Positions 2,775 to 43,628 of a DNA stretch of 64,000 nt are shown here, piece after piece. The stretch comes from Chromohalobacter moromii (GTDB taxonomy: Bacteria; Pseudomonadota; Gammaproteobacteria; Pseudomonadales; Halomonadaceae). The notes under the pieces are model-generated. The model saw nothing but the letters and a program-made list of their open reading frames with translations. It had not been told where the DNA came from and made no database searches. Made by a program: the position numbers and the translations under genes. The stretch's first letter is position 1, and each line of letters begins with the position of its first letter. The stretch covers positions 62,001 through 126,000 of the forward strand of contig NZ_JAHXDI010000003.1 in assembly GCF_023091865.1 (NCBI RefSeq), in the 5' to 3' direction.

Positions 2775-2815
2775 AGAACAATAATTCCCTACTGATAATG
2801 AGGAGAGAGATTACC

Positions 2816-3951: not shown

Positions 3952-4920
3952 ATGAACGATAGTACGCTGTCTCTGTTCGTCAGAGTCTCTCAAAAGCACC
4001 AGGAAGCCGAGGACATCGTCAGCTATGAGTTGGCCGATCCTCACGGGCGCCCATTGCCTGCTTTCAGTGCCGGCGCGCATGTCGACGTGCGCGTCAAAGA
4101 AGGCGTGATTCGCCAATATTCGCTGTGCGGGCACCCGGAAGAGCGCGATCGCTATTTCATCGGCGTATTGCGCGAACCCAGCTCTCGCGGCGGCTCCGTC
4201 GCCATGCACGATGAGATCGAGGAAGGCGATCTGCTGCAGATCAGCGCGCCCAAGAACCACTTTCCTCTAGAACCCGCCAAGCGCTCGGTCCTGTTCGCTG
4301 GCGGCATCGGCGTCACGCCGATCCTGTGCATGGCCGAACGTCTGGCGCACACCCAGGCACAGTTCGATATGCATTATTGTTCACGCTCACGCGAACGCAT
4401 GGCCTTCGTCGACCGCCTCGAGCAATCCGCTTACGCTGATCATGTGCATTTTTATTACGACGATGCGCCAGAGGCCGGCAAGCTGGATGTGGCCACCGTC
4501 GCCGGTGAGCCAGACGACGAGACGCATATCTATGTCTGTGGCCCGAGCGGCTTCATCGATCACGTCATGTCGACCTGCAAGGCGCAGGGCTGGCCGTCGT
4601 CTCAACTGCATACCGAGTATTTCAGTGGCGTGGAGACGACCTCCGAGGACGACGAAAGCTTCGACGTGAAGATCGCCAGTAGCGGCGCGACGTTCCCGGT
4701 CCCCAAAGACAAGAGCGTCTACGAGGTGCTGAGCGAAAACGGCGTCGAGATCATGGTCTCCTGCGAGCAGGGCGTCTGTGGCACCTGCCTGACGCGCGTT
4801 CTAGAGGGCGAACCGGACCATCGCGACCTCTACCTCGACGACGATGAACATGCCGCCAACGACCAGTTCACGCCGTGCTGCTCTCGCGCCAAGAGCAAGA
4901 CGCTGGTACTGGACCTGTAA
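3952..4920 (+). CDS. vanB: Vanillate O-demethylase reductase subunit
   Basis: NAD(P)H-dependent flavin/iron-sulfur reductase passing electrons to VanA. The 322-residue protein has the flavin-binding RQYSL motif (about 54-58), the GGIGVTPIL nucleotide-binding segment (about 118-126), the CGPSGF motif (about 196-201) and a C-terminal plant-type [2Fe-2S] domain with ligands C271, C276, C279 and C309. This is the phthalate dioxygenase reductase architecture expected for VanB. It is co-transcribed with vanA and followed by a strong hairpin. A related reductase with the same layout is at 11986. Confidence 0.96.
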   Translation: MNDSTLSLFVRVSQKHQEAEDIVSYELADPHGRPLPAFSAGAHVDVRVKEGVIRQYSLCGHPEERDRYFIGVLREPSSRGGSVAMHDEIEEGDLLQISAPKNHFPLEPAKRSVLFAGGIGVTPILCMAERLAHTQAQFDMHYCSRSRERMAFVDRLEQSAYADHVHFYYDDAPEAGKLDVATVAGEPDDETHIYVCGPSGFIDHVMSTCKAQGWPSSQLHTEYFSGVETTSEDDESFDVKIASSGATFPVPKDKSVYEVLSENGVEIMVSCEQGVCGTCLTRVLEGEPDHRDLYLDDDEHAANDQFTPCCSRAKSKTLVLDL

Positions 4921-11985: not shown

Positions 11986-12960
11986 ATGCCTGACAAATAT
12001 AAAACGGCGGTGGTGCTCGAGCGACGCGAGCTGACCGAGCATATAAGTGAAATCACTCTAGGCTTAGCCGACGACTCACCCTTGCCGGCGTCCCGAGCCG
12101 GTGCGCATGTCGAGCTACGTTTCGGTGGGCAAGAAGGTCGATTTTTGCGTCATTACTCACTTATCGGCCCACTCGATCTCACCAGCACCCATGAGCCTTT
12201 CTGGCGCATCGCGGTTCAACGTGAAAACCGCCGTCGAGGCTCCGATTACATTCACCGGCATTTCAGGGCTGGCACTAACGTACTGATATCTCCCGCGCTC
12301 AGCCCCTTTCGGCTGACTTCCGATGATGGCCCCGCTTTGCTTATCGCCGGCGGTATCGGCATTACCGCAATCCTCCCCATGCTGCGCTCCTGCGTGATGC
12401 GCCGACGCGATGTCCACATGCTCTATGTCGGGCGCAGCCGTGAGGCCATGGCCTATGTCGAGGAAGCCGAGGCGCTGGGGGGCGACGCCGTCACCGTGCA
12501 TGACGCCACGACGCTCGGAGGTAGGCCCAATCTCGACGCATTGCTCGCTCAGCAGCCCACCAATACCACCGCCTATGTGTGCGGCCCGCCGGCATTGATC
12601 GACGGCACCCGCCAAGCAGCGCAACGATTGGGATGGGCGCCGGAACGCGTGCGTCACGAGATATTCAATGCCGCCCACAAGGCCGAGGACCGTGCCGTCA
12701 CGGTGCAGACCCGAAGCGGTACGCAGATTCCCGTCTCACCCGGCCATACCTTGTTGGAAGCACTCGAAGCGGCCGGTGCCGAGACCTTTTCGGACTGCCG
12801 CCGCGGAGAGTGTGGCCTGTGCATCACCCCGGTCAGCAGCGTCGATACTGACATCGACCATCGCGACCGTTTTCTCACCCCCGATCAGAAACGGAGCAAT
12901 CGGCAAATCGCCTTGTGCTGCTCTCGTCCGCGTTCGGGATCGATTGCACTCGATATCTGA
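11986..12960 (+). CDS. VanB-like oxygenase reductase
   Basis: Electron-transfer reductase for the Rieske oxygenase encoded directly downstream. The 324 residues show the flavin motif RHYSL (55-59), GGIGITAIL (122-130), CGPPAL (199-204) and a C-terminal plant-type [2Fe-2S] domain with C271, C276, C279 and C311, spacing nearly identical to VanB in this window. The reductase precedes the oxygenase here, opposite to vanAB. Likely part of an O-demethylase for a methoxylated aromatic acid other than vanillate; the substrate is inferred from neighbours only. Confidence 0.88.
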   Translation: MPDKYKTAVVLERRELTEHISEITLGLADDSPLPASRAGAHVELRFGGQEGRFLRHYSLIGPLDLTSTHEPFWRIAVQRENRRRGSDYIHRHFRAGTNVLISPALSPFRLTSDDGPALLIAGGIGITAILPMLRSCVMRRRDVHMLYVGRSREAMAYVEEAEALGGDAVTVHDATTLGGRPNLDALLAQQPTNTTAYVCGPPALIDGTRQAAQRLGWAPERVRHEIFNAAHKAEDRAVTVQTRSGTQIPVSPGHTLLEALEAAGAETFSDCRRGECGLCITPVSSVDTDIDHRDRFLTPDQKRSNRQIALCCSRPRSGSIALDI

Positions 12961-12989
12961 AAGATAAAAAGATAAAGGAGCTAACTGCC

Positions 12990-14102
12990 ATGACCCACGC
13001 TAGCCAAGCGATACCGCTCAACGACGAAGCCATTTTCGACGCCATGCCCATGGAAGAAGGTGGCCAATTCGCCAATCATGCCACGCCCCTGATTCGTAAC
13101 TGCTGGTATGTGTGCGCGCGGCGCGATGAAGTGGGCCGCACGCCTATCTCACGCCGCCTTCTCGACACGGATGTGGTCATGTACCGCACCCAAAGCGGCC
13201 AGCCGGTAGCCATGCATAATCGCTGTCCGCACCGTGCCTTTCCCCTAGTGAAAGGCCGGGTGGAGGGCGACCGGCTGGTGTGCGGTTATCACGGCATGGA
13301 GTTCGAACCCGATGGGCTATGCGCGCACCTGCCCGCGGTTTCTCATGTACCCGCCAACGCCTGTGTCCAGACCTATCCCATCGCCGATCGCGGCCCATTG
13401 ACGTGGATCTGGATGGGAGATCCCAACCTGGCCGACGAAGCCTTGATCCCCGAGCTGCCCTGGCTGGCCTCTTCCGAGTGGGGTACCGTTACCGGCGACT
13501 TTCATATCAAAGCCGACTATGTGTCGATGCACGAAAACCTCATCGACCAGACACATTTCCCTTTCTTGCATCCGGGCACAGTGGGGACACCTGAATACGC
13601 ACGCGCCAGCATGGAAGCTTCCACCGAGGGTAATCAGGTAGCGATCACCCGCCGCCTGGACAACGCGCCACCCCCGGGTATTTACGGTAAACCAGCCGAT
13701 ATCATGCACAAGAATGTCGACCGCACCTCTGAGGCGCGGTTCGCCTCACCTGCTGTACATACGGCTCATGCCAAGATCTTCGATACTCAACCGGACGCCG
13801 GCAAACCATCGGTGTATGGCTATTACATCACGCATTGCTTCACGCCCGAGTCCAATCACTCCATCCACTACTGGTGGTTCAATTCCCGGGACTATCGCAT
13901 TGACGACACAGATACCGATGACTTCCTGAGAGAGGCCAGCACACAAGCGTACTATGAAGATGTCGAGGCACTGGAATGGATCATGGACGTCGTTCTCAGC
14001 GACAAAGAAGCCCAGCAATTCGAGCTGAGTTTCGCGCCCGACAAGCCTGGTTTGATGGCGAGACGGATCATGCATCGTCTGGCAATGGCGGAGCGCGGTT
14101 GA
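12990..14102 (+). CDS. Rieske non-heme iron oxygenase, VanA-like O-demethylase candidate
   Basis: Terminal oxygenase of 370 residues. Rieske ligands are C79/H81 and C98/H101 (RCPHR, CGYHG); the mononuclear iron site is HENLIDQTHFPFLH with H189 and H194. ATG 12990 follows AAAGGAG; the longer frame from 12915 overlaps the reductase gene. The N-terminus is about 30 residues longer than VanA and the two proteins clearly differ. Its reductase precedes it, and a formaldehyde dehydrogenase, TRAP importer and gallate operon lie nearby. This context fits demethylation of syringate or 3-O-methylgallate, but sequence alone does not prove the substrate. Confidence 0.85.
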   Translation: MTHASQAIPLNDEAIFDAMPMEEGGQFANHATPLIRNCWYVCARRDEVGRTPISRRLLDTDVVMYRTQSGQPVAMHNRCPHRAFPLVKGRVEGDRLVCGYHGMEFEPDGLCAHLPAVSHVPANACVQTYPIADRGPLTWIWMGDPNLADEALIPELPWLASSEWGTVTGDFHIKADYVSMHENLIDQTHFPFLHPGTVGTPEYARASMEASTEGNQVAITRRLDNAPPPGIYGKPADIMHKNVDRTSEARFASPAVHTAHAKIFDTQPDAGKPSVYGYYITHCFTPESNHSIHYWWFNSRDYRIDDTDTDDFLREASTQAYYEDVEALEWIMDVVLSDKEAQQFELSFAPDKPGLMARRIMHRLAMAERG

Positions 14103-14215: not shown

Positions 14216-15403
14216 TCACGCCGCGCCAAGTAGCCCATGTGGGTCCAGCACGAACTTGCTGGCCACGCCGGCATCGAACTGCTGATAGCCCTGCGGTGCG
14301 TCTTCAAGCGAGATGACCTGGGCATTGACAATCTCGGCGATGTTGAGTCGCCCGTGCAGGATCGCCTGCATCAACTGGCGGTTGTACTGCACCACCGGCG
14401 TCTGCCCGGTGTGGAAGGAATGTCCCTTGGCCCAGCCCAGGCCGAAGCGCAGGCTGAGATTGCCGCTCTGGGCCGCCTTCTCGGTGGCGCCGGGGTCCTC
14501 GGTGACATAGAGGCCAGGGATGCCGATCGAGCCGGCTTCGCGTGTCACTTCCATCATCTGATTGAGCACCACCGCCGGTTGCTCCTTGCCGCCATGGCCC
14601 ACGGCCTCGAAGCCGACGGCGTCGATGGCACTGTCGACCTTCGGCTCGCCCACCACGGCGGCGATCATCTCGCCCAGGCGATCGTGGCGGCTCAAGTCGA
14701 TGGGTTCGAAGCCCATCTTGCGGGCGTGTTCCAGGCGCTGCTGGTTGAAGTCCCCGATCATGACCACCGCGGCCCCCAGCAGGTGCGCCGATGCCGCCGC
14801 GGCAAGCCCGACCGGGCCGGCCCCTGCGACATAGACCGTCGAGCCCGCGCCTACCTTGGCATTCAAGGCACCATGGAAGCCGGTCGGCAGGATATCGCTC
14901 AACATCGTCAGGTCGCGGATCCTGTCCATCGCCTGGTCGCGATCCGGAAACTTGAGCAAATTGAAGTCCGCGTACGGCACCATGACATAGTGCGCTTGAC
15001 CGCCGACCCAACCGCCCATGTCGACGTAGCCATACGCCCCGCCGGCACGATCATCATTGACGTGCAGACACAGCCCGGTATGTCCTTCCTTGCAGGTGCG
15101 GCAACGCCCACAAGCGACATTGAACGGCACCGAGACCAGGTCCCCGATGTCGAGGAATTCGACGTCCTTGCCCTTCTCGATGACCTCGCCGGTGATTTCG
15201 TGGCCCAATACCATTCCCGCTGGCGCGGTCGTGCGTCCGCGCACCATATGCTGGTCGGACCCGCAGATGTTGGTGGAAACCACCTTGAGGATCACGCCAT
15301 GCTCAATGGTCTTGCCACTAGGCGCTTCCATCTTGGGATAGGCAATGTCCTGAACTTCGACCTCGCCGGGTCCGGTATAGACGACACCACGATTATTAGC
15401 CAT
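14216..15403 (-). CDS. fdhA: Glutathione-independent formaldehyde dehydrogenase
   Basis: Zinc-dependent NAD+ enzyme oxidising formaldehyde to formate. The 395-residue length matches Pseudomonas putida FdhA (~398). Catalytic zinc residues are C47 (NICGSDQH), H68 (GHE) and D170; structural zinc cysteines are C98, C101, C104 and C112. The nucleotide motif GAGPVGLAAA is near 195-205. ATG 15403 follows AGAGGTCGAAA. It is convergent with the Rieske oxygenase and probably detoxifies the formaldehyde made by both Rieske O-demethylases in this window. Confidence 0.93.
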   Translation of the reverse strand: MANNRGVVYTGPGEVEVQDIAYPKMEAPSGKTIEHGVILKVVSTNICGSDQHMVRGRTTAPAGMVLGHEITGEVIEKGKDVEFLDIGDLVSVPFNVACGRCRTCKEGHTGLCLHVNDDRAGGAYGYVDMGGWVGGQAHYVMVPYADFNLLKFPDRDQAMDRIRDLTMLSDILPTGFHGALNAKVGAGSTVYVAGAGPVGLAAAASAHLLGAAVVMIGDFNQQRLEHARKMGFEPIDLSRHDRLGEMIAAVVGEPKVDSAIDAVGFEAVGHGGKEQPAVVLNQMMEVTREAGSIGIPGLYVTEDPGATEKAAQSGNLSLRFGLGWAKGHSFHTGQTPVVQYNRQLMQAILHGRLNIAEIVNAQVISLEDAPQGYQQFDAGVASKFVLDPHGLLGAA

Positions 15404-15486: not shown

Positions 15487-16791
15487 CTAGTCCATCATCG
15501 TATCGGGCAGGAAAAGCACGATTTCGGGGAAGACGATCAACAGCCCGATGGCCGCGATCATCATCAACCAAAACGGCATGACACCCTTGAAGATGTCACG
15601 TAATGGCACATTGGGCGCCACGGATTTAACGATGAAAACGTTCACGCCCACGGGCGGACTGATGAGCCCCATCTCCAGCGTCAACACGACAACGACACCG
15701 AACCAAATCGGGTCGAACCCCAGTTGAGTAATCACCGGAAAGAAGATCGGCATGGTCAACACCAGCATCGCGAAGCCTTCCAGGAAGCACCCCAACACCA
15801 GGTAGCAGGCCAAGATTATGAGCAGGATCCCATAAGGCCCAATATCCAAGTGCATCAGGAAATCGCCCAGCGCTTGCGGAATATGACTCAAGGCCAGAAA
15901 GGGATTGAGCATGTGCGCAGCGATCAGAATCAGCATCACGGTGGCCGTGGTGGTGATCGAGCTTTGCGCCGCGCGCCAAAACGCGGCCAGCGTCAACTTG
16001 CGCATGCCCGCACCGAAGGCCACCGTCAAACCAGCGCCTACGGCCGCCGCCTCGACAGGAGAAAAGATCCCGCTATAGATGCCACCGATCGTCAACAGAA
16101 TGATGATCAAAATCGGCGTCGCCCCAAGCAGCCCCTGCTGTTTTTCCCGCCATGAGGTCTTGGGCCCTGAGGGGGCAAGAACCGGCTTGATGGTGGCCAA
16201 TATCATGATCAAGATGACGAACAGAAGGCATAGCATGATGCCGGGCAGTACGCCCGCCAGAAACAGCCGCCCAATGGACTGCTGCGTCAGGATGGCGTAG
16301 ATCACGAAACCGGTTGAGGGTGGGATGAGGATGCCAAGCGTCCCGCCTGCAGCCACCGAGCCCGTCGAGAGCTTGGCACTATAGTTGTATCGTTCCATCT
16401 CGCTGAGCGAGACACGGCCCATGGTCAAGGCCGAGGCCACCGATGAACCGCATAATGCGGCAAAACCCGCGCAGCCCACTACCGTGGCCGACGCCAGCCC
16501 GCCGCGTACGGAACCGATGAGCGCATAAGCGGCGTCATACAACTTACGGCTCATTCCCGCCTCAGTGGCGACATTCCCCATTAGGATGAAGAGTGGAACG
16601 ACGATCAATTCAGCGTTAGAAGCAATGGTGAAGGTTTCGCTGACCAACAAGCTCAGGGCGGAATTGAAACTGTCCAGGAGCGTGACACCGCCGAAGCCCA
16701 CAGCGAAGATGGCAAATGCAACGGGGATCCTCAACACCAGCAGCAACAATAACGCCACGATACCTAGGAAGCCGATCAACTCGGTATTCAT
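15487..16791 (-). CDS. dctM: TRAP transporter large permease
   Basis: Inner-membrane 12-TM TRAP permease, 434 residues, hydrophobic throughout, with the DctM signatures GCAGFAALCGSSVASALTMG and AAGGTLGILIPPSTGFVIYA. Its start overlaps the small-subunit stop by 4 nt, and it is third in the dctP-dctQ-dctM order. Given the adjacent O-demethylase and gallate genes, the substrate is probably a methoxylated or hydroxylated benzoate. Confidence 0.93.
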   Translation of the reverse strand: MNTELIGFLGIVALLLLLVLRIPVAFAIFAVGFGGVTLLDSFNSALSLLVSETFTIASNAELIVVPLFILMGNVATEAGMSRKLYDAAYALIGSVRGGLASATVVGCAGFAALCGSSVASALTMGRVSLSEMERYNYSAKLSTGSVAAGGTLGILIPPSTGFVIYAILTQQSIGRLFLAGVLPGIMLCLLFVILIMILATIKPVLAPSGPKTSWREKQQGLLGATPILIIILLTIGGIYSGIFSPVEAAAVGAGLTVAFGAGMRKLTLAAFWRAAQSSITTTATVMLILIAAHMLNPFLALSHIPQALGDFLMHLDIGPYGILLIILACYLVLGCFLEGFAMLVLTMPIFFPVITQLGFDPIWFGVVVVLTLEMGLISPPVGVNVFIVKSVAPNVPLRDIFKGVMPFWLMMIAAIGLLIVFPEIVLFLPDTMMD

Positions 16792-17315
16792 AAATCTTCT
16801 TCCCCGTGAGGAGCTGGATAGCGATTCCGGGGACTCAACAAAGTAGTCACAATTCGCGCGAACATGGCAAGAGCCGTCAAAAAGGCGAAGAAGGCGACAG
16901 CGTATTGAAAAGGCCCCTTAGGGATACCGATAATATTACTACTCAAATTCAAAAGCTCTGAGATTTCAGCCGCGCCAATCATGGTGTAACCGATGGCGGT
17001 AAAGATGGCGCACCCAATGACCCATCCAGCGATATCCAGAAAGAAATTCATCTTTCTTGGAAACTTGTCTTCGAAAATATCGACGGCAATATTGCCGCCT
17101 TGCTTATCACAGAGAGCCATACCGCCGAACACGACAATCACCATCGTCATTTCCGACAAATCCTGTGCTCCCGTCAAGGGAAAGCCGAAAAGCCGTCCCG
17201 TCACGTCTACCAGTGTCACGAGAACGATAAAGATCAATGCCAGTGTGCCGATGATGCTGGATAGGCTTACGAGCCTATCCAGCATGCGGGTCACATGCGT
17301 GAGTATGTGACTCAT
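16788..17315 (-). CDS. dctQ: TRAP transporter small permease
   Basis: Small 4-TM TRAP subunit of 175 residues. Hydrophobic helices lie near 14-34, 50-70, 88-110 and 130-150, and VTGRLFGFPLTGAQDLSEM is the DctQ motif region. A GTG at 17333 overlaps the dctP stop; ATG 17315 with an upstream GGAGTGAG is preferred. It pairs with the downstream DctM. Confidence 0.9.
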   Translation of the reverse strand: MSHILTHVTRMLDRLVSLSSIIGTLALIFIVLVTLVDVTGRLFGFPLTGAQDLSEMTMVIVVFGGMALCDKQGGNIAVDIFEDKFPRKMNFFLDIAGWVIGCAIFTAIGYTMIGAAEISELLNLSSNIIGIPKGPFQYAVAFFAFLTALAMFARIVTTLLSPRNRYPAPHGEEDL

Positions 17316-17322
17316 ATCAGGC

Positions 17323-18318
17323 TCACTCCCCACGCATGGCGTCTAGCACACTTTCTGTACCTTTTTCCGCCAAACGCTGCTTGCGAAACTCATCGGCGAT
17401 CTTTTCAAACTTCGCTATTTCCTCATCGCTGAGTTCAATCACTTCATTATCAGAATCTTCGCGTATCTTCTTCAACGTTTCATTGGCGCGGGCATTCCAG
17501 CCTTGCTCACCGCTTCGTGACAACTCTTTGCCGCTATTGTCATCGATTGCCTTTTTGAACTCATCGGAGAGACTATCGTATTTATTTTGATTCATGGCCA
17601 AATAGAACATGATATGACCCAATGGCGCGCCCACCGAGTAGACATTGGCGACTTCATCGAGTTTGAAGTCATTGACGGCGCTGGCACCGGTCACCAACCC
17701 ATCTATCAAGCCCGTCTGGAGCGAGTTGTAAACCTCCCCAGCAGGCATTTGCACGGGAGTGCCGCCATAAGCATCGACCAGTGCCGCCGTCATTTCTCCA
17801 GAGACACGAATCTTCAAGCCCTCGAGATCTTCCGGTGTATGAATTTCTTCATCTTTCATGATGAAAATACTTGGCTCGCTCGTCCAAAGCGCGAGCGGTT
17901 TAGTTCCTGGAAACTCACTTTTAAGTTGGTCGTCATAGGCATTCCACAGCATGTCATAGCCATGCATCCCATCGGGAATCGCACCCGGCATTTCGACAAC
18001 CATGGACTTCTTGAACTGTGATGAGGTGTATCCGGGGATCCCCCAAGCAATATCGGCGACACCCTGCAAGACACGCGGATATTGTTCCTTGGGCCCCGAG
18101 CCCAGCTCCCCGCCAGGATATACTTTGACTTCCAGCTCGCCGTCAGTCTGCTCCTCGACGCCTTCTTTGAAGGGATAAACAATGGAACTGTTGACGACAT
18201 GAGCAGGTGAAACGAAGTGAGCAAGTTTCAAGGTTTCTGAGGCATTGGCACCTGCGCTGACAGCCATTGCCACGCCAGCCGTCAGCGTTAGCAGGGTACG
18301 GTTTCTTAACGTTTTCAT
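17323..18318 (-). CDS. dctP: TRAP transporter solute-binding protein (DctP family)
   Basis: Periplasmic receptor, 331 residues, with a signal peptide (about 1-26, cleavage after GANA) and the DctP-fold segments LKLAHFVSPAHVVN and LEGLKIRVSGEM (the conserved ligand-contacting Arg region). It contains no cysteine, unlike the three mandelate/pca-linked DctPs in this window. It is the first gene of a dctPQM operon with 5-TRAP-like order. The ligand is unknown; the neighbourhood points to an aromatic carboxylate. Confidence 0.92.
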   Translation of the reverse strand: MKTLRNRTLLTLTAGVAMAVSAGANASETLKLAHFVSPAHVVNSSIVYPFKEGVEEQTDGELEVKVYPGGELGSGPKEQYPRVLQGVADIAWGIPGYTSSQFKKSMVVEMPGAIPDGMHGYDMLWNAYDDQLKSEFPGTKPLALWTSEPSIFIMKDEEIHTPEDLEGLKIRVSGEMTAALVDAYGGTPVQMPAGEVYNSLQTGLIDGLVTGASAVNDFKLDEVANVYSVGAPLGHIMFYLAMNQNKYDSLSDEFKKAIDDNSGKELSRSGEQGWNARANETLKKIREDSDNEVIELSDEEIAKFEKIADEFRKQRLAEKGTESVLDAMRGE

Positions 18319-18477
18319 TCTGGCGTCTCCCGACTTTTATTAAACTTTAGTCTTGTTTTCCCTCCGTTTTCGCACAAAAACACATAAGGAAACGGAGCCT
18401 TAAAGCACCGTACCCGGCCCTCAGTCACAGCAACAAATTCAAATCACGTGCTTGGGTATACGTTTTTGCTATCCCGG

Positions 18478-19731
18478 TCACGAATGAGACGGCAAGCCTG
18501 GGCTAGCCATGCGTTCGCCGAGTTCCAGCAAAATACGCCGAAGCACTTTCAAGGCATGCGTTGGGGAATCATCGGTACGCGTCGTGATACCGATCGGGCG
18601 TAAGGTGCCCGTCAGCTTGATGGGAAGAAGCGCCAGTTGGCCGCTTTGGACCTCGAAGAAAACCTGATGAGGGGAAACCAGTGTCACACGATCGCTATCC
18701 AACAACAGCGTACGGATGGTGCTGAGGTTGCCGGATTCGACCACCACATCGGGAGGCGCCAAACCGGCACTGCGGAATTCCTGCTCGAAGCTCACGCGCG
18801 CGGGCGTCCCCTGGCGTGGCGCGATCCACCGCGCATCGAGCAGGTCACTCAACGCCAGCGAGGCATGTTGCATCAGAGGATGATCGCGGCGCGCCGCGAC
18901 GGCGAGGCGATCATGAAAAAGTCGCTGCTGGGTGGTGTCTTCGCTTGTGCCAGCCTGGCGCAGTGCGCCGATAAGAATATCGATCTCGCCATGGCGCAAC
19001 GATTCAAATAGCGCATCATAGGTGCCCTCGAGGATCGTGACATGCAACTCCGGCAGCTCGCGCAGCAGCGCGTCCACCGCCTGAGGGACGAGCAGCGAGC
19101 TCGACAACGGCAAGGTCCCGATGACCACGCGCCCGCGCACCTCGCCTTGCCAGGCCGAAAGGTCATCGCTGACCAGGGACAGCTCTCGCAGCGCCACCTT
19201 GACATGACGAATCAACACCGCGCCGCCATCCGTCGCCAGCATGCCGCGTTGCGTGCGTAGGAAAAGGGCGATGCCCAGCAGGCGTTCCAGATCGCGCAGA
19301 TTGCCACTCACCGCTGGCTGGGTCAGCCCCAGCCGCTTGGCCGCCTGGGGCTCGTTATGTAGATCGGCAACGGCCACCAGCACCGTCAATTGACGGTGCG
19401 ACAAGCGTTGCGTGAGCCGCTCGCAATGGCCCGCTGGTTGCATGCGCGCCAGCGCGGCCTCAGCATCGCCGAGTTGCTGCAAGGCGCGCCGGAAACGATG
19501 CAGGACGATCTTGCCCGCAGTGGTACACAACATGCCGCTGCGATGGCGCTCGAACAGTGCCAGCCCGAGCTCTTTCTCCAGATCGCGTACTGCCCGGGTC
19601 ACCGCAGGTTGCGACAAATGCAGCGTCTCGGCCGCACGCATCACACTGCCCGCTTCGGCAACCGCGATGACCGCTCGCAAACGCCGCATATTAGGGACGT
19701 AATCGAACGCCTCACGATACAGTTCGGTCAT
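18478..19731 (-). CDS. LysR-family regulator with two tandem HTH domains (second copy), divergent from gal operon
   Basis: Of 417 residues, two LysR-type winged helices occupy about 15-73 (RLRAVIAVAEAGSVMRAAETLHLSQPAVTRAV) and about 110-170 (LSHRQLTVLVAVADLHNEPQAAKRLGLTQPAVSGNL), followed by one effector-binding domain (about 198-400). It is divergent from galB, with a perfect LysR-type ATGGCGATATGCCAT palindrome between them, so it is a likely activator of gallate/protocatechuate meta-cleavage. Pseudomonas GalR is an ordinary-length LysR protein, so the doubled DNA-binding module is unusual. Confidence 0.87.
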   Translation of the reverse strand: MTELYREAFDYVPNMRRLRAVIAVAEAGSVMRAAETLHLSQPAVTRAVRDLEKELGLALFERHRSGMLCTTAGKIVLHRFRRALQQLGDAEAALARMQPAGHCERLTQRLSHRQLTVLVAVADLHNEPQAAKRLGLTQPAVSGNLRDLERLLGIALFLRTQRGMLATDGGAVLIRHVKVALRELSLVSDDLSAWQGEVRGRVVIGTLPLSSSLLVPQAVDALLRELPELHVTILEGTYDALFESLRHGEIDILIGALRQAGTSEDTTQQRLFHDRLAVAARRDHPLMQHASLALSDLLDARWIAPRQGTPARVSFEQEFRSAGLAPPDVVVESGNLSTIRTLLLDSDRVTLVSPHQVFFEVQSGQLALLPIKLTGTLRPIGITTRTDDSPTHALKVLRRILLELGERMASPGLPSHS

Positions 19732-19798: not shown

Positions 19799-19932
19799 AA
19801 AGGGAGCATGCCAAGCATCTAACGCACCTGCCGCATAAGCAAAACGCATGTTGACGCCGGCGAAAAACATTATTCGCGTTTCAGACGAGGTGACAGGATA
19901 AAACCATCGTCTTCAACGGTAGGTTTCAATAA

Positions 19933-20670
19933 ATGACTGGCGCTTCTTCTCCTGCTGGCCTGGTGGTCAGCGCACATTCTGCGGACTTCGTATGGCGGGC
20001 GGGCGGCGCCATCGCCCTGCATGCCCGGCAAGGCTATGCCATGCATATCGTCTGCCTGTCGTTCGGCGAGCGCGGTGAATCCGCCAAGCTTTGGCGACAG
20101 GGCAACATGAGCGAGGAAAAGGTCAAGGCGGCTCGCCGCGAAGAAGCCGAAGCGGCCGCCGCCGCGTTGGGCGCCAGCGTCGAGTTCTTCGACATCGGCG
20201 ACTACCCCATGCGCGCCGACAAGGAGACGCTATTCCGGCTCGTCGAGGTCTACCGCCGCATACAGCCCGAGTTCGTGCTCACGCACTCGCTCAAGGATCC
20301 CTACAACTACGATCACCCGCTCGCCACCGACCTCGCCCAGGAAGCCCGCATCATCGCCCAGGCGGAAGGCCACAATCCCGGCGAGACCATCGTCGGCGCT
20401 CCGCCCGTCTATTGCTTCGAGCCGCACCAGCCGGAGCAATGCCAGTGGCGCCCCGATGTGCTGCTCGACATCACCGAGGTGTGGGACGACAAGTACCGCG
20501 CGATTCAGTGCATGGCCGGGCAGGAACACCTGTGGGAATACTACACCCGCGTCGCCCTGCAGCGTGGCGTGCAGGCCAAGCGCAACATCGGCATCACCGC
20601 GAAGAAGAACATCAAGTATGCCGAGGGTTATCAAAGCATCTTCCCCCGCGTCACGGAGAATCTAGCATGA
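19933..20670 (+). CDS. galB: 4-oxalomesaconate hydratase (PIG-L/LmbE family)
   Basis: Hydrates 4-oxalomesaconate to 4-carboxy-4-hydroxy-2-oxoadipate in gallate and protocatechuate 4,5-cleavage. The 245-residue protein belongs to the PIG-L deacetylase fold that Pseudomonas putida GalB uses, unlike the amidohydrolase-type LigJ. The metal-binding [12 protein letters not shown] motif is at 14-25 and the HxxH-type [14 protein letters not shown] segment near 130. It overlaps galC by 4 nt (ATGA), starting a tightly packed operon that runs to ligB/galA. Confidence 0.92.
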
Positions 20671-21401
20671 CGACCTCCCTGGAAACCCCCGGAATCGTCG
20701 TACGCGACGTTCCCCGGGCTGCACGCGAACACATCGACGCACTCGGCGAGGAGGGCGTCGCCACCGTACACGAAGCCCAAGGACGCAAGGGGCTACTCGA
20801 CCCCGCGATTCGCCCCATCCAGCAGGATCATGGCATCAGCGGCTCGGCGGTGACGGTCCTGGTCTCTCCCGGTGACAACTGGATGTTCCATGTCGCCGTG
20901 GAACAGTGCCAGCCCGGCGATATCCTCGTGGTGGCCACGCGCTCTCCCTGTGTCGACGGCTATTTCGGCGACTTGCTGGCCACGTCTCTGCAAGCCCGCG
21001 GCGTGCGCGGCCTGGTGCTCGACGGGGGCGTGCGCGACACGCGTATCCTGCGCGAAATGGGCTTCGCCGTCTGGTCGCGCGCCGTGCATGCCCAAGGCAC
21101 CGTCAAGGAGACTCTGGGCTCGGTGAACATTCCCGTCGTCTGCGCCGGCCAGTGGATCAATCCCGGCGATATCGTCGTCGCCGACGACGACGGCGTGGTC
21201 GTGGTGCGTCGTGACGAGGCCGACAGCGTGGTCACCGCCAGCCGCAAACGCGCCGCCGCCGAGGAAGACAAGCGCGTGCGCCTGGCCAATGGCGAACTGG
21301 GCCTCGACATCTACGACATGCGCCAGCGCCTCGCCGACAAGGGGCTGACCTATTACGACGACCCGCAGGCGCTGGCGCGTGCCATGGGGTCCTCGTCATG
21401 A
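20667..21401 (+). CDS. galC: 4-carboxy-4-hydroxy-2-oxoadipate aldolase (RraA-like)
   Basis: Cleaves 4-carboxy-4-hydroxy-2-oxoadipate to pyruvate and oxaloacetate (LigK/GalC reaction). The 244-residue protein has the RraA/HMG-aldolase fold, with [27 protein letters not shown] and the catalytic Arg-Asp pair in GGVRDTRIL. The start overlaps galB, and the stop overlaps galD by 4 nt. It completes the shared lower part of gallate and protocatechuate meta-cleavage. Confidence 0.93.
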
Positions 21402-22510
21402 GCCAGACGCGCATTCCGTGTCTGCAGATGCGCGGCGGCACCTCGAAGGGGCTGTACTTCCTCGCCGAAGACCTTCCTCGCGATACCGTGCAGCGCGATG
21501 CGGTATTGCTCGCCGCGATGGGCTCGCCCGATGCGCGTCAGATCGATGGCCTGGGCGGGGCGACATCGCTGACCAGCAAGGTCGCGATCGTCGACCGCCC
21601 GACTCGCGACGACGTGGATGTGGACTATCTCTTCGCCCAGGTCGTCGTCGATGCCCCACGCGTCGACTATGGCCAGAACTGCGGCAACATCCTCGCCGGC
21701 GTCGGCCCCTTCGCCATCGAGCGCGGTTGGGTGACGGCATGCGACGGTACGACACCGGTACGCGTGCACATGGTCAATACCGGTCAGGTAGCGATCATCC
21801 ATGTCCCAACGCCCGGCGGGAGCGTCGAATACGCCGGCGACGCCGAAATTTCCGGCGTGCCAGGCAGTGCTGCCCCCTTGATCGTCGAATTCCAGGATAC
21901 CGCCGGCTCGAGCTGTGGCGCCCTGCTGCCCACCGGCCAGCGCCGCGATAATGTCGAAGGTATCGAGGTGACCTGTCTCGATAACGGCATGCCGGTGGTC
22001 CTGTTACGTGCCGAGGATCTCGGCGTCAGCGGCCACGAAAGCTGCGCCGACCTGGAGGCCAATACCGCGCTGCGGGAACGCCTCGAACGCATCCGCCTGG
22101 CGGTGGGGCCGCGCATGAACCTGGGCGACGTCAGCGAACGCACCGTGCCCAAGATGACCCTCATCGCCGCGCCTCGGCATGGAGGCAGCCTCGCCACGCG
22201 CTCGTTCATTCCGCATCGCTGCCACGAGGCCATCGGCGTACTCGGTGCGGTCAGCGTGGCCAGCGGCTGCCTGGTGCCGGGCACCGTGGCCGACGGGCTG
22301 GCGGTGCTGAACGAGGGACCGACACAGCGCCTGTCGATCGAGCACCCGACCGGCGAGTTTACCGTCGAGCTGACCCGTGACGCGGACGGCGAGATCGTCC
22401 GCGCGGGACTACTGCGCACCGCCCGACTGCTCTTCGAAGGCCACTTGCATGTGCCGCGTGCCGTCTGGAATGGCGACACCGCGGCCCACTCCAACGGAGC
22501 CGCTTCATGA
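21398..22510 (+). CDS. galD: 4-oxalomesaconate tautomerase (PrpF family)
   Basis: Converts the keto form of 4-oxalomesaconate to the enol form used by the hydratase. The 370-residue protein shows the PrpF/diaminopimelate-epimerase fold: the N-terminal [20 protein letters not shown] and the [15 protein letters not shown] segment that includes the active-site cysteine region. Length matches P. putida GalD (~361). It overlaps both neighbours by 4 nt, so translation is coupled. Confidence 0.93.
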
Positions 22511-23220
22511 CATCCGTACCGCTATTGCCGCTGCCGGGCCTGCTGTGCGACGACGCCGTCTGGGTTGAAGTACGCGAACATCTCGTCGCCCCTACGCTGC
22601 CCACGCCCGACTACGGCATGGCCGATTCCATCGGTGCCATGGCCGACATTACCTTGCAAGACGCGCCCGAGCGATTCATCGCGGTGGGCCATTCCATGGG
22701 CGGCCGCGTCGCCCTCGAGATCCAGCGACGCGCACCGCAGCGTGTCGCGGGCCTGGCGCTGCTGGATACCGGCTTCCGCGGCCGGGCAGCGGGAGAAGCG
22801 GGCCAACGCGAAAGTGACAACCGTCACGCACTGCTGGCCAAGGCCCGCCAGGACGGGATGCGCGCGATGGGCAACACTTGGCTGCAAGGCATGGTGCACC
22901 CAGAGCGGCTCAACGACGAGGCGCTCATCGAAGCGATTGTGGCGATGATCGCGCGCAAGGACCCCGAGACCTTCGCCGCCCAGATCGACGCCCTACTGGC
23001 CCGCCCGGACGCCACCGCGCAACTAGCCGACATCGCCTGCCCGACCCTGCTGTTGTGCGGCCGCCAGGACGGCTGGAGTCCGCTGGAACGCCATGAAGAA
23101 ATGGCAGGGCTCATTCCCGGCAGCCGCCTCGAGGTCATCGAGGAAGCCGGCCACATGAGCCCCATGGAACGTCCCGCCGCCGTCGCCCGAGCGCTCGACC
23201 ATTGGAGAAACAGCCTATGA
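22507..23220 (+). CDS. Alpha/beta hydrolase in gal operon, substrate unknown
   Basis: A 237-residue alpha/beta hydrolase. The nucleophile elbow GHSMGG places Ser63, with Asp188 (CGRQDGW) and His216 (AGHMSP) completing a catalytic triad. It overlaps galD and the next gene by 4 nt each, so it is a true operon member. No LigI-type (amidohydrolase) 2-pyrone-4,6-dicarboxylate hydrolase is seen in the window. This enzyme could supply that lactone-opening step or hydrolyse an aromatic ester that releases gallate or protocatechuate. Both ideas are inference. Confidence 0.8.
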   Translation: MTSVPLLPLPGLLCDDAVWVEVREHLVAPTLPTPDYGMADSIGAMADITLQDAPERFIAVGHSMGGRVALEIQRRAPQRVAGLALLDTGFRGRAAGEAGQRESDNRHALLAKARQDGMRAMGNTWLQGMVHPERLNDEALIEAIVAMIARKDPETFAAQIDALLARPDATAQLADIACPTLLLCGRQDGWSPLERHEEMAGLIPGSRLEVIEEAGHMSPMERPAAVARALDHWRNSL

Positions 23221-23672
23221 GCCCTTTGTCCCACGAAACCCGAGCGGCCATCGAGCAGGCCTGCACCCGCCTGGTCCTCGATGCCGCCGCCGCCACCGAC
23301 CGTCAGGACTATGCCGGCCTCGTGGCGCTTTTCACACCGGACGGCCAACTGTTTCGGCCTACCGCTCCCGAGGAACCGCTCGCCGGGCGCGAGGCGATCC
23401 TGGCAAGCTACCAAGCAAGGCCACCGCAGCGCATCACACGGCATTTCTGCAGCAACATCCGTGTCCAGGTGGAAAGCGCCGAGCGGGCGCGGGTCAGTAC
23501 CTATGTGCAAGTTTTCGCCGCCGACACCCAACACGCGCCAGACGGCCACTTCGGCTGGCCGCTGGCAGGCCGCACCATGATCGGTGAATTCGACGACCTA
23601 TGCGTGCTCGAGCAAGGCGCATGGCACTTCGTCGAACGCCACGCCCGCTTCGTCATGCATCGCGATGGCTGA
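23217..23672 (+). CDS. SnoaL/NTF2-like protein in gal operon
   Basis: A 151-residue protein with the NTF2-like/SnoaL_4 pattern: N-terminal helices (LVLDAAAATDRQDYAGLVALFTPDGQLFRP), GREAILASYQARP, ITRHFCSNIRVQVESAERARVSTYVQVF and a C-terminal beta strand WHFVERHARFVMH. ATG 23217 overlaps the hydrolase stop. Such small cone-fold proteins often act as isomerases, dehydratases or ring-hydroxylase beta-like subunits, but no specific function can be assigned. Its position between the lower-pathway genes and ligAB suggests a role in meta-cleavage. Confidence 0.75.
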   Translation: MSPLSHETRAAIEQACTRLVLDAAAATDRQDYAGLVALFTPDGQLFRPTAPEEPLAGREAILASYQARPPQRITRHFCSNIRVQVESAERARVSTYVQVFAADTQHAPDGHFGWPLAGRTMIGEFDDLCVLEQGAWHFVERHARFVMHRDG

Positions 23673-23732: not shown

Positions 23733-24089
23733 ATGTCGGATACACAAGAGCGCTGGGGCATTCCCGGCACCTATGTCTTCGACCTTGCGCTCTCGCGGCA
23801 AGGGTATGCCATCAACAAGATGTGCAACTCGCTCAAGTTCGACGAGAACCGCGAGGCCTTCAAGGCCGACGAAGAAGCCTATATGGAACGCTACGGTTTG
23901 TCGGAAGAACAGAAACAGGCCGTTCGCGAGCGTGACTGGCTGCGTCTGACCCAGCTCGGCGGCAATCTGTTCTTCTTCCTCAAGCTTGGCGCCACCCTGG
24001 GCTACGGGCTTTACACCATCGGCGCACAGATGCGTGGCGAGAGCTACGAACAGTTCATGTCCACCCGCAACGTGCCAGGAGCAACCTAA
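23733..24089 (+). CDS. ligA: Protocatechuate 4,5-dioxygenase alpha subunit
   Basis: Small subunit of the extradiol dioxygenase that opens protocatechuate between C4 and C5. The 118 residues match LigA: IPGTYVFDLALSRQGYAINKMCNSLKFDENREAF, then LSEEQKQAVRERDWLRLTQLGGNLFFFLKLGATLG. ATG 23733 follows GGGAG; the longer frame from 23694 is unsupported. It overlaps ligB by one base (TAATG). Confidence 0.94.
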   Translation: MSDTQERWGIPGTYVFDLALSRQGYAINKMCNSLKFDENREAFKADEEAYMERYGLSEEQKQAVRERDWLRLTQLGGNLFFFLKLGATLGYGLYTIGAQMRGESYEQFMSTRNVPGAT

Positions 24090-24934
24090 TGGGCAAGATC
24101 GTCGCCGGCATCGGCTCCTCCCATGTGCCCTCGATCGGGCGCGCCTACGATCAGCAGAAACAAACCGACCCGGCTTGGCAGCCCCTCTTCGACGGTTACG
24201 AACCCGTCAAGCGCTGGCTGGCCGAGGAGGTCAAGGCCGATGTCGTCATCCTCGTCTATAACGATCATGGCACCGAGTTCTTTCTCGATTGCTACCCCAC
24301 CTTCGCGCTGGGCGTCGCCGACAGCTACGCCGTAGCAGACGAAGGCTACGGCAAGCGCCCCTTGCCGGACTTCCCCGGGGATGCGGCCTTCTCCGAGCAT
24401 CTCGCCAATCACCTGGTCGCCGACGAGTTCGACCTGACCCTGTGCCAAGAAATGGCGCTGGACCACGGCTTTCTCACCGCCATGCCGCTGCTCTGGGATC
24501 ACGACGACACGGCCTGGCCGGTCAAGGTCGTGCCGCTGCTGGTCAACGTCATCCAGCATCCGCTGCCCACGGGCCAGCGCTGCTACAAGCTGGGCGAGGC
24601 CATTCGGCGCGCTGTCGAGGCCTATCCCGAGGACACCCGCGTTGCCGTCGTCGGCACCGGTGGCCTCTCGCACCAGCTCAATGGCGAGCGTTTCGGCCAC
24701 ATCAATGAAGAATGGGACAAGCAGTGGCTACAGCGCATCCAGGACGAACCCCGCGAGCTCGCCGCACTGTCGCACAAGGAGGTCATGACGGAGGCCGGCG
24801 CCGAGGGCGGTGAAGTCATCATGTGGTTCGTGATGCGCGGCGCCATGACCGAACGCGTCGAGGAGGTGCATCGCTTCTACTACGCCCCGATGACCACGGG
24901 TATGGCGCTGCTCGCGCTCAATAATAGCGACTGA
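24089..24934 (+). CDS. ligB: Protocatechuate 4,5-dioxygenase beta subunit
   Basis: Catalytic subunit of the type II extradiol dioxygenase, 281 residues. Iron ligands H12, H60 and E242 and the catalytic H195 (GGLSHQ) are in place, agreeing with the Sphingobium LigB pattern. Together with LigA it produces 4-carboxy-2-hydroxymuconate-6-semialdehyde, the substrate of the LigC-like dehydrogenase encoded at 57262-58200. It is co-operonic with galBCD and directly precedes the fused paralogue galA. Confidence 0.95.
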   Translation: MGKIVAGIGSSHVPSIGRAYDQQKQTDPAWQPLFDGYEPVKRWLAEEVKADVVILVYNDHGTEFFLDCYPTFALGVADSYAVADEGYGKRPLPDFPGDAAFSEHLANHLVADEFDLTLCQEMALDHGFLTAMPLLWDHDDTAWPVKVVPLLVNVIQHPLPTGQRCYKLGEAIRRAVEAYPEDTRVAVVGTGGLSHQLNGERFGHINEEWDKQWLQRIQDEPRELAALSHKEVMTEAGAEGGEVIMWFVMRGAMTERVEEVHRFYYAPMTTGMALLALNNSD

Positions 24935-24961: not shown

Positions 24962-26248
24962 ATGGCACGCATCGTCGGCGGACTCGCCGTTTCCCACACG
25001 CCCACCATCGGCTTCGCCGTCGATCACGAGAAGCAGGAAGAAGACGCCTGGGCACCGATCTTCGAGAGCTTCGCGCCGATGACGCAGTGGCTGCAGGACA
25101 AGCGCCCTGACGTACTCTTTTACATCTTCAACGATCATGTGACGTCGTTTTTCTTCGACCACTACTCTGCCTTCGTACTCGGCATCGACGACCATTACGA
25201 GGTCGCCGACGAAGGCGGCGGGCCACGCGACCTGCCCGGCATCGGCGGGCACGCAGCGCTGTCTCGTCATATCGGCGAGAGCCTGATGGCGGATGAGTTC
25301 GACATGTCGTTTTTCCAGGACAAGCCGCTCGACCACGGCCTTTTCTCGCCCATGTCGGCGCTTTTGCCCTTCGAAGATGGCTGGCCGGTCGATGTGGTGC
25401 CCCTGCAGGTGGGCGTCTTGCAGTTTCCCATTCCCAGCGCGGCGCGTTGTTACAAGCTGGGGCAGGCGCTACGCCGTGCCATCGAGAGCTATCCGGACGA
25501 TCTCGACGTGGCCATCGTCGCCACCGGCGGCGTCTCACACCAAGTGCACGGCGAGCGCGCCGGCTTCAACAACCCAGAGTGGGATGCGCAGTTCCTCGAC
25601 CTGCTGGTCAATGACCCACAACAGCTCACCCAGATGACGCTGGCGGAATTCGCCACACTGGGGGGCCTGGAAGGTTCGGAGGTGGTCACCTACCTGATCA
25701 TGCGTGGCGCGCTGTCCCAAACCGTGACCGAACGCCATCAGGATTATTACCTACCGTCGATGACCGGGATCGCCACCCTGATCCTCGAAAATCAGGCGCA
25801 GCCCAACCCTATCGATCTAAGCGAGCGCTATCGTCAACACAGCCGCCATCAACTGGCCGGCATCGAGGCACTGGAAGGCACCTACCCGTTCACGCTCGAA
25901 CGCAGCCGCAAGGGCTATCGCATCAATCGCTTCCTGCATCGGCTGATCGAGCCCGAATGGCGCGAGCGCTTTCTCGCCGATCCCGAAGCGCTCTTCGAGG
26001 AGGCGGCACTCAGCGATGAGGAGCGCCGCCTGATTCGCGAGCGCGACTGGCGGGGCATGATCCATTATGGCGTCATCTTCTTCCTGCTGGAGAAACTCGG
26101 CGCCGTCATCGGCACCTCCAATCTCCATATCTATGCCGCCATGCGCGGCGAGAGCCTGGAAGAATTCCAGAAGACCCGCAATCAGCAGGTCACCTACTCC
26201 GTGGCTCGACGTCGAGATACCGACGACGCATCCTCGGCAGAGACTTGA
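24962..26248 (+). CDS. galA: Gallate dioxygenase (LigB-LigA fusion)
   Basis: Opens gallate to 4-oxalomesaconate. The 428-residue protein has an N-terminal LigB-like catalytic domain (about 1-280) with H12, H59, H193 and E240, and a C-terminal LigA-like domain (about 305-415; YPFTLERSRKGYRINRFL, LIRERDWRGMIHYGVIFFLLEKLG). Size and domain order match GalA of P. putida and DesB of Sphingobium. The fused order (B then A) is the reverse of the separate ligA-ligB pair immediately upstream. 27-nt spacing places it in the same operon. Confidence 0.95.
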   Translation: MARIVGGLAVSHTPTIGFAVDHEKQEEDAWAPIFESFAPMTQWLQDKRPDVLFYIFNDHVTSFFFDHYSAFVLGIDDHYEVADEGGGPRDLPGIGGHAALSRHIGESLMADEFDMSFFQDKPLDHGLFSPMSALLPFEDGWPVDVVPLQVGVLQFPIPSAARCYKLGQALRRAIESYPDDLDVAIVATGGVSHQVHGERAGFNNPEWDAQFLDLLVNDPQQLTQMTLAEFATLGGLEGSEVVTYLIMRGALSQTVTERHQDYYLPSMTGIATLILENQAQPNPIDLSERYRQHSRHQLAGIEALEGTYPFTLERSRKGYRINRFLHRLIEPEWRERFLADPEALFEEAALSDEERRLIRERDWRGMIHYGVIFFLLEKLGAVIGTSNLHIYAAMRGESLEEFQKTRNQQVTYSVARRRDTDDASSAET

Positions 26249-39584: not shown

Positions 39585-40754
39585 TTATAGGGTTTTGCCC
39601 CAGCCCAGTTTCTTGGCCATCGAAAAGGCATGGTTAGCAGCCGGCACGCCGGCATAGATCGCCACATGCATCAGTGCCTGGCGCAGTTGTGCTTCGCTAA
39701 GGCCGATACGCTGGGCGGTTTTCAGGTGGAGTTCCAGCTCTCCGTCGCGCCCCAGCGCTGCTAGCACCGCCAGGGTGATCATGCTGCGCTCGGTGCGGCT
39801 CAAATCATCGTTGCCCCACAGCTCGCCCCAGGCCATGCGCGTAATCATGTTCTGGAACGGCGCGTCGAGGGTGGTGGCATTTTCGCTGGCACGCGCCACG
39901 TGCTCGTCACCCAGCACCTGCTTCCGCGTTTCCAGACCGGCGGCATAGCTCACACCGTTCGCGTCGCCGTGCTCATCACCCAACCAGGCACGCAGACGCT
40001 TGGCGATGGCCTCGGGCACTTCCACGCTGGGGACATGGGCGATGTCTTCAAGCACTTCGAGACGCGCATCGCCGAACTGTGCGGCCAGCGTCTTCAAGGT
40101 GTCAGGCGGCGTGGAGAGATCCTCGCGCCCGCCGAGCAAGCGCACCGGTCCCACGACCCCGCGCAGTTGCCCGCTGAAGTCGGTATCGGCCAGCATCTCG
40201 CAAAGTCGCGCGTAGGACTCACCATCGGTACGCGCAAGCTGGATCTTCCAGCCCGTATAGGTCGCCGCATCGCCTTGCGCGAACGCCTCGGAAAACCAGC
40301 GCGGCACGATCTCGTCGGCCATGGCGGCCAAGCCTTCCTGGCGCACGCGCGAGGCCCGCGTATGCCAGTTGTCCGGCGACCCGATCACCGCGCCGGTGTT
40401 GGTCAGCACGACATCGGCGAAACGCTCGGGGCACTGGATCAGCAACTGCTGGCCGACCACGCCGCCGATCGAGGTACCCACGAAATGAAAGCGCGCCACG
40501 CCCAGCGCATCGGCCAAAGTCAGGGCGTCTTCGGCCAGCGCGCGAGGCGTGACCGCCTCGGTCAGGCCACTGCTGGCGCCATGACCGGGCAGGTCCCAGG
40601 TCACGCAGCGGAAACGGCCACGCAAGGCGGCGACCACGCCTTCCCACACGTCCTGGCTCATGCCCAGCGGGTGTGCCAACAGCACCGCCGGCAGCGCGGC
40701 TTCACCGCTATCGCGATAGGCGATCGTGCGCTCCGCCACCGTCAAGAAAGCCAT
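39585..40754 (-). CDS. pcaL: 3-oxoadipate enol-lactonase / 4-carboxymuconolactone decarboxylase fusion
   Basis: Bifunctional enzyme of 389 residues joining PcaD and PcaC. The N-terminal alpha/beta hydrolase (about 1-260) has the nucleophile Ser95 in GTSIGG and His in the late IAHVPSVE segment. The C-terminal ~120 residues (from about 268: GLETRKQVLGDEHVARA...) form a carboxymuconolactone decarboxylase domain with AWGELWGNDDLSRTERSMITLAVLAALGRDGELELH. Such PcaL fusions are known in actinobacteria and some proteobacteria; pseudomonads usually keep separate genes. It follows pcaF by 10 nt. Confidence 0.95.
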   Translation of the reverse strand: MAFLTVAERTIAYRDSGEAALPAVLLAHPLGMSQDVWEGVVAALRGRFRCVTWDLPGHGASSGLTEAVTPRALAEDALTLADALGVARFHFVGTSIGGVVGQQLLIQCPERFADVVLTNTGAVIGSPDNWHTRASRVRQEGLAAMADEIVPRWFSEAFAQGDAATYTGWKIQLARTDGESYARLCEMLADTDFSGQLRGVVGPVRLLGGREDLSTPPDTLKTLAAQFGDARLEVLEDIAHVPSVEVPEAIAKRLRAWLGDEHGDANGVSYAAGLETRKQVLGDEHVARASENATTLDAPFQNMITRMAWGELWGNDDLSRTERSMITLAVLAALGRDGELELHLKTAQRIGLSEAQLRQALMHVAIYAGVPAANHAFSMAKKLGWGKTL

Positions 40755-40764
40755 GCCGTTCTCC

Positions 40765-41970: not shown

Positions 41971-41980
41971 CGAATTCTCC

Positions 41981-43575: not shown

Positions 43576-43594
43576 GCGGATTGCCTCGCAACTT

Positions 43595-43628
43595 GTTCGC
43601 TTGGTGAACACTGGTTTGTGATACGAAC
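43595..43628. promoter_or_regulatory. Three-half-site PcaR-type operator before pcaI
   Basis: GTTCG (43595) - N5 - TGAAC (43605), then CGAAC (43624). The palindrome half-sites start 10 nt apart and the same-orientation pair 19 nt apart. The same geometry recurs at four other promoters in this window. Acinetobacter PcaU/PobR (IclR family) bind three half-sites in a comparable inverted-plus-direct layout. Confidence 0.65.

Follow-up and report, generated by a model that had tools for sequence, protein, structure and literature searches.

A hydrolase and SnoaL-like gene pair coupled to galD in Chromohalobacter moromii: probable mgaC-mgaD genes of the syringate/3-O-methylgallate pathway

Introduction

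The closest described system is that of Pseudomonas sp. NGC7, in which VanA1B1 makes 3-O-methylgallate and MgaAB opens its ring to CHMOD (PMC12314914). The methyl ester of CHMOD is then stripped by MgaC, a MenH-type alpha/beta hydrolase. The CHMA tautomerase is predicted to be MgaD, a SnoaL-like protein of pfam13577, after which GalD, GalB and GalC act (PMC12314914). MgaC and MgaD (PSN_2689 and PSN_2687) were defined by mutants. Deletion of mgaC abolished growth on syringate and 2-pyrone-4,6-dicarboxylate (PDC) accumulated, and deletion of mgaD lowered the growth yield on syringate (PMC12314914). The NGC7 cluster includes a formaldehyde dehydrogenase gene (fdhA2) and a GntR repressor gene, and the genome is described as being without LigI (PMC12314914). 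The half-life of CHMOD before its conversion to PDC is about 70 min (PMC12314914). Homologues of the NGC7 pathway genes, for which the criterion was more than 50% identity, have already been described in other genera (PMC12314914).

Two other systems lead to the same intermediate. DesC-DesD of Novosphingobium aromaticivorans DSM 12444 (Saro_2864/2865) are assigned the same two steps, from CHMOD to 4-oxalomesaconate; NGC7 MgaC is only 13% identical to DesC (PMC12314914). The PDC hydrolase LigI/PmdD would likewise feed 4-oxalomesaconate, but belongs to the amidohydrolase superfamily, whereas the protein studied here is an alpha/beta hydrolase.

Here we compare these systems with a gene pair in a 64-kb stretch of Chromohalobacter moromii DNA (the window). 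An earlier note had placed the pair in a gallate/protocatechuate meta-cleavage operon and suggested that the hydrolase might be a PDC lactonase unrelated to LigI, or a feeder esterase; CHMOD was not among the substrates it considered. We consider it likely that the pair is mgaC-mgaD of the syringate/3-O-methylgallate pathway, on the strength of the NGC7 genetics, the same set of functions in the window, co-occurrence with LigB and esterase-like profile and fold matches. The pair and its role are already in print for Pseudomonas sp. NGC7 (2025, PMC12314914); the layout in the window differs. A search of the open-access literature turned up no paper that connects Chromohalobacter with syringate.

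Results and Discussion

The gene pair is part of a meta-cleavage operon

The alpha/beta hydrolase gene (22507-23220, + strand) encodes 237 amino acids and the SnoaL_4/NTF2-fold gene (23217-23672, +) encodes 151; we propose them as an MgaC-type CHMOD methylesterase and an MgaD-type CHMA tautomerase/isomerase. Both reading frames were confirmed at these positions, and orthologues of the hydrolase at 83-94% identity occur in five other genomes, which argues for a conserved coding sequence rather than a chance frame. The start of the hydrolase gene overlaps the end of galD (22510) by 4 nt (ATGA), and the start of the SnoaL-like gene overlaps the end of the hydrolase gene in the same way. The galC/galD junction at 21398-21401 is likewise ATGA, and the gene run from galB to the fused dioxygenase gene holds three ATGA overlaps and one TAATG junction in all. 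The earlier placement of the pair in the meta-cleavage operon holds. A 4-nt overlap had also been claimed between the SnoaL-like gene and ligA; here the claim fails, as the LigA-type gene most likely starts at 23733, preceded by the ribosome-binding-like sequence AAGGGAG, leaving a gap of 60 nt. An alternative in-frame ATG at 23694 would shrink the gap to 21 nt.

The hydrolase resembles esterases

The hydrolase matched Abhydrolase_6 at 63.7 bits, and its matches were limited to families of the alpha/beta hydrolase type; it did not fall in PF04909, the family of LigI. Like MgaC, it has a MenH-type alpha/beta fold with catalytic Ser-Asp-His, although the MenH model itself scored 61.4 bits, below its cut-off of 208.55. 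The triad Ser63-Asp188-His216 is intact, as had been noted, and was kept in all 80 loci examined (the best 80 of 353), where only the conservation of Asp188 is independent of selection because the locus scan demanded one of two motifs containing Ser63 or His216. Arg106, Trp125, Arg166, Trp190 and His196 were also kept in 80/80 of these best 80 of 353 loci and may bind the carboxylates of CHMOD.

The AlphaFold2 model of the hydrolase had a pLDDT of 97.1, and its nearest solved folds were esterases; by profile as well as by fold, carboxylesterases matched best. The best solved match was the Thermogutta terrifontis esterase 4uhc (profile 127 bits; TM 0.86 by query length), whose Ser, Asp and His align with the triad columns; 4uhc is titled merely a thermophilic esterase, with no pathway link. 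A PcaD-type 3-oxoadipate enol-lactonase was rejected, as the PcaD model TIGR02427 gave 92.5 bits against a cut-off of 255.85 and a bifunctional PcaDC exists separately at 39585-40754.

C-C bond hydrolases of the MhpC/BphD type, which act on meta-cleavage products, share the fold, and by profile the hydrolase matched MhpC at 53 bits and BphD at 43-44 bits. The BphD-type model TIGR03343 scored only 33.1 bits, far below its curated cut-off of 462.15, and these matches are weaker than the esterase match. C-C hydrolases prefer ketones, whereas the products of LigAB-type dioxygenases are acids, aldehydes or esters. We regard this activity as highly improbable for the hydrolase.

The SnoaL-like protein is a probable isomerase

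The SnoaL-like protein matched PF13577, the family of NGC7 MgaD, at 61.5 bits, above the cut-off of 24. Asp28, His76 and Arg141 were invariant and Arg47 near-invariant across 32 rows of SnoaL-like proteins. The model had a pLDDT of 96.2; its best fold match was the putative scytalone dehydratase 3ef8, and LinA was also among the matches. In a profile alignment, Asp28 and His76 align with the Asp and His of the scytalone-dehydratase-like 3ef8, pointing to an Asp-His pair as the agent of proton transfer; LinA presumably uses such a pair as well. Proton transfer in the SnoaL-like protein is thus probably carried by Asp28/His76, and Arg47 and Arg141 may bind carboxylates. Catalysis of the ketosteroid-isomerase type was rejected, because the position of that enzyme's catalytic Asp, which we take to be Asp40, is Arg47 here in the profile alignment. 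We judge it probable, as had been suggested, that the protein isomerises a product of ring cleavage.

Other genes of the window are counterparts of the NGC7 set

Downstream of the pair lie a LigA-type dioxygenase alpha subunit gene (mgaA-like, 23733-24089, +; PF07746, 110 bits, below all listed NCBIfam cut-offs) and a LigB-type beta subunit gene (mgaB-like, 24089-24934, +; PF02900, 228 bits), together a proposed 3-O-methylgallate dioxygenase. Three class III extradiol subfamily models, of which NF009902 was best, exceeded their cut-offs on the mgaB-like protein, and the gallate dioxygenase model stayed under its own (364 against 412). Since the similarity of MgaA and MgaB to GalA is about the same (42-52%) as that to the dioxygenases of LigI-containing pmd-type operons, their sequences do not reveal a specificity for 3-O-methylgallate, which counts against the assignment. 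The fused LigB-LigA gallate dioxygenase gene galA follows at 24962-26248 (+; NF009904, 827.5 bits, cut-off 412).

Upstream are a galB-like gene for a proposed KCH hydratase of the PIG-L family (19933-20670, +; PF02585), named by its position in the galBCD order, galC for the CHA aldolase (20676-21401, +; TIGR02798, 345 bits, cut-off 304.5) and galD for 4-oxalomesaconate tautomerase (21398-22510, +; NF033377, 537.6 bits, cut-off 440). A LysR-type gene with HTH_1 and LysR_substrate domains is divergent from galB (18478-19731, -) and is called galR-like by position; it gave 238 bits with the PcaQ model, under the cut-off of 303.8. Its 417-aa product has two LysR-type HTH stretches before one substrate-binding domain.

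Between galR and galB lies ATAAGCAAAACGCAT (19835-19849, +), the sole match with at most one mismatch in the 64 kb to the GalR site of strain KT2440, whose consensus was taken from PMC12314914. With up to three mismatches, the 52 matches in the window were about as many as in shuffled DNA (mean 44). A second GalR-site-like sequence, with two mismatches, lies at 18458-18472 (-), between galR and TRAP-type genes at 15487-18318, and hints that this transporter may import a pathway substrate.

Candidate genes for O-demethylation are also present. A vanA1-like Rieske oxygenase gene (2810-3874, +) exceeded the cut-offs for VanA_C (175.5 bits) and Rieske (78.4 bits); the best solved match of its product was dicamba O-demethylase DdmC (216 bits), and its substrate is putative. 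It is paired with a vanB1-like reductase gene (3952-4920, +), which matched reductase/ferredoxin models. The reductases of the window are provisionally called VanB, the first by its pairing with vanA1; all NCBIfam models stayed under cut-off. A GntR-family regulator gene, VanR-like by position (1968-2684, -; GntR models all under cut-off), is divergent from vanA1B1, and its homologues adjoin vanA1B1 in relatives. A second VanB/VanA-like pair with a weak Rieske-type match lies at 11986-14102 (+), and fdhA for glutathione-independent formaldehyde dehydrogenase at 14216-15403 (-; TIGR02819, 719.8 bits, cut-off 636.95, scored on a longer ORF ending at 15472).

The hydrolase is thus clustered, as MgaC is, with LigAB-type genes, a VanAB-type O-demethylase, galBCD and a SnoaL-like partner. 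The set shared with NGC7, as far as its account describes it, comprises a MenH-type hydrolase and a PF13577 protein, a LigAB-type pair, VanAB, GntR, galBCD, galR, formaldehyde dehydrogenase and no LigI; the likeness to NGC7 MgaC and MgaD is one of family and gene set. The arrangement differs. In NGC7, mgaC and mgaD are in a van-type Up operon under VanR2 and are split by the porin-like PSN_2688 (PMC12314914), whereas in the window translational coupling joins the two genes directly to one another and to galD, and mgaAB and the fused gallate dioxygenase gene come after them. Here the pair is probably under the GalR-like regulator rather than in a van operon.

A LigC-like enzyme had also been listed for the window. 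Its gene is there (57262-58203, -; best solved match PmdC 9azo, E 1.7e-79), but about 34 kb off and outside the operon. Genes resembling a tripartite tricarboxylate transporter (51552-54600, by eye) lie about 2.7 kb from it. The genome has neither LigI nor a LigB beyond the mgaCD operon.

The pathway may bypass PDC

The assembly (3.47 Mb, 6 contigs, completeness given as 100) yielded no LigI, so that its reported absence from the window holds for the genome. The single PF04909 gene matched 4mup at 243 bits but LigI at no more than 115 bits; a genuine LigI query (346 bits to 4d8l) retrieved the same gene at 34% identity. On either side of it lie genes of the enolase superfamily and of the NAD-dependent epimerase family.

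The lack of LigI favors a serine hydrolase, unrelated to LigI, that opens PDC or acts on both CHMOD and PDC. PcaD enol-lactonase is among the nearest named profiles (see above), and by fold the hydrolase also matched an enol-lactonase and a homoserine-lactone hydrolase. The accumulation of PDC in the NGC7 mgaC mutant (PMC12314914) would also be expected if MgaC opened PDC, and an experiment on whether wild-type cells consume PDC was not found in the available part of the NGC7 account. Set against this, the authors of that account argue from the CHMOD half-life and from the lack of PDC in wild-type cells (PMC12314914). We judge conversion with a half-life of about 70 min too slow for a main route.

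At E 1e-30, the only LigB-type genes in the C. moromii genome were mgaB and the fused gallate dioxygenase gene, and for protocatechuate pcaG and pcaH exceeded their curated cut-offs. On these grounds the pathway need not pass through PDC. The window also has beta-ketoadipate genes at 39585-45069 and 49318-51210 (PcaDC over cut-off; pcaF, J, I, B and quiC by eye), which indicate an ortho route for protocatechuate alongside.

LigI occurred at 66-73% identity in 4 of 58 relatives (G010, G027, G041 and G046), three of which carry the hydrolase too; in G027 the hydrolase is 88% and LigI 66% identical. LigI thus stands alongside the hydrolase in three of the eight carriers described below. A further 42 hydrolase-bearing genomes, chosen from the best 80 of 353, included 28 with LigI at 62-76% identity to the query. 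In the Pseudomonas-like genome G534, hydrolase and LigI (346 bits) lie in one gene run. The hydrolase is therefore not simply a stand-in for LigI, and on this coexistence we rejected it as a non-homologous LigI. Whether MgaC is a CHMOD esterase or a PDC lactonase, its mutant would be expected to build up PDC; the coexistence with LigI in relatives adds evidence for the esterase. The lactonase of the earlier note, whether for PDC alone or for CHMOD as well, is accordingly very unlikely. We leave a small chance that in genomes without LigI the hydrolase is dual-purpose or a true PDC-opening serine lactonase, which would make MgaC a PDC hydrolase of a second, non-homologous kind.

Among relatives the pair accompanies mgaAB

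A strong orthologue of the hydrolase (42-100% identity) was present in 8 of 58 relatives, six of them Halomonadaceae (G000, G004, G005, G007, G008 and G027). LigB-type dioxygenases were found in nine relatives, namely all eight carriers and G010 (Fisher p 4.7e-9, a value overstated by the relatedness of the genomes). G010 has LigAB, PmdC and LigI, and a strong hydrolase match is absent. Two genomes with matches of 30-34% identity beside HpcH/HpaI aldolases (G045 and G049) were excluded as a separate group. The SnoaL partner occurred in 7/8 carriers, and weak matches to it alone in four further genomes. The exception, G041, counts against the mgaCD assignment: its hydrolase gene has no SnoaL partner and adjoins pmdC, with LigAB about 15 kb away.

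In four relatives (G004, G005, G007 and G027), mgaCD-mgaAB is retained and no LigB match other than mgaB was seen at E 1e-30. An intact fused gallate dioxygenase is therefore missing from them, and the pair accompanies mgaAB rather than gallate cleavage. All that G004, the C. canadensis relative, retains of the fused gene is a stretch of 33 residues (L025:2323-2421). A feeder esterase of the tannase/feruloyl-esterase kind, for gallate or protocatechuate esters, has in its favor the feruloyl esterase 7dq9 and aryl esterases among the fold and profile neighbors. It fits badly with these four relatives, in which the pair persists where gallate dioxygenase is missing; moreover, no export signal was seen on the hydrolase by eye, and the coupling to an isomerase and to O-demethylases would be left unexplained. 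We hold such a role to be very unlikely.

In G046, a gene for a LigM-type demethylase (552 bits to LigM, the vanillate/3-O-methylgallate O-demethylase) precedes mgaA-mgaB-mgaC-mgaD. As LigM can also yield gallate or protocatechuate, a demethylase of this type does not single out CHMOD.

Named loci, plasmids and tree

The named loci comprise the best 80 of 353 with the hydrolase, 14 of the 80 stretches being shorter than 12 kb. Within these best 80 of 353, the SnoaL partner was found in 31, LigB in 33, a VanA- or folate-type O-demethylase in 22 and a LigI/4mup-type amidohydrolase in 9. No neighbor of the 12 types scored was found in 28 of the 80 (best 80 of 353), which counts against the mgaCD assignment. 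Whole genomes were checked for these 28 and for 14 chosen others, and LigB was present in 41/42 (27/28 and 14/14), a figure that shows consistency and not enrichment.

The Halomonas sp. McH1-25 locus (L037) reads galBCD-mgaCD-mgaAB-vanA1B1 in one direction. On plasmid pLA3 of Novosphingobium US6-1, the same functions lie on both strands, and a folate-type O-demethylase accompanies the pair; identity to the window proteins is 44% for the hydrolase and 38% for the SnoaL_4 protein. That the same pair is found with demethylases of two non-homologous types speaks for a methoxylated ring as substrate, subject to the caveat on LigM above. Among the 20 plasmid rows listed, the hydrolase was annotated as 'alpha/beta hydrolase' in 14, and 6 had no annotation at that place.

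In a tree of 79 rows, including 76 of the 80 named loci (four were left out), the window hydrolase fell in a clade of seven with support 95/85. Six of the seven had the SnoaL partner, LigB and an O-demethylase in the locus (the window was labelled by hand), and L039 had none of these in its locus.

Two hydrolase homologues adjoin other extradiol dioxygenases, which counts against the mgaCD assignment. On a Bosea plasmid (L164:7805-11849), a 46% identical hydrolase is encoded beside hpaD, a 132-aa ORF, a FAH-family gene and hpaH, which suggests that the family also serves other extradiol routes. On a Roseomonas gilardii plasmid (L163:8109-10661), the hydrolase gene lies between genes for a class III extradiol dioxygenase and an annotated catechol 2,3-dioxygenase; an amidohydrolase gene and genes of the VanB family are close by.

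A hydrolase search of 398 genomes of a Pseudomonas-like genus, located through PrrF and taken from a larger group, gave 21 matches, of which G534 was best. Its run galD-LigI-ligA-ligB-pmdC-MFS-hydrolase has one direction and lies near a Mutator-family transposase gene (L154:14143-20000 and the start of L155). The NGC7 arrangement was not recognised there, the run being of the LigI-containing pmd type; G531, G611 and G486, three of the other 20, were likewise negative by gene map.

Proposed pathway

From the observed gene order, families, conservation, co-occurrence and LigI absence, we infer every catalytic step of the following scheme for C. moromii. A VanAB-type Rieske enzyme would convert syringate to 3-O-methylgallate, and MgaAB would open the ring to give CHMOD, which bears the methyl ester. 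The Ser63-Asp188-His216 hydrolase would demethylesterify CHMOD, with release of methanol, before it cyclises to PDC, which in the absence of LigI is likely to be a dead end. The SnoaL_4 protein would shift a proton in CHMA to form 4-oxalomesaconate, and GalD, GalB and GalC would carry this to pyruvate and oxaloacetate.

The mgaC-mgaD assignment replaces a speculative lactonase with a testable function for a generically named gene family. If it is true, Chromohalobacter and Halomonas strains would hold a complete syringate route in one cluster, and strains that lost the hydrolase gene would be predicted to accumulate PDC, which serves as a building block for polymers, when given syringyl lignin under salt.
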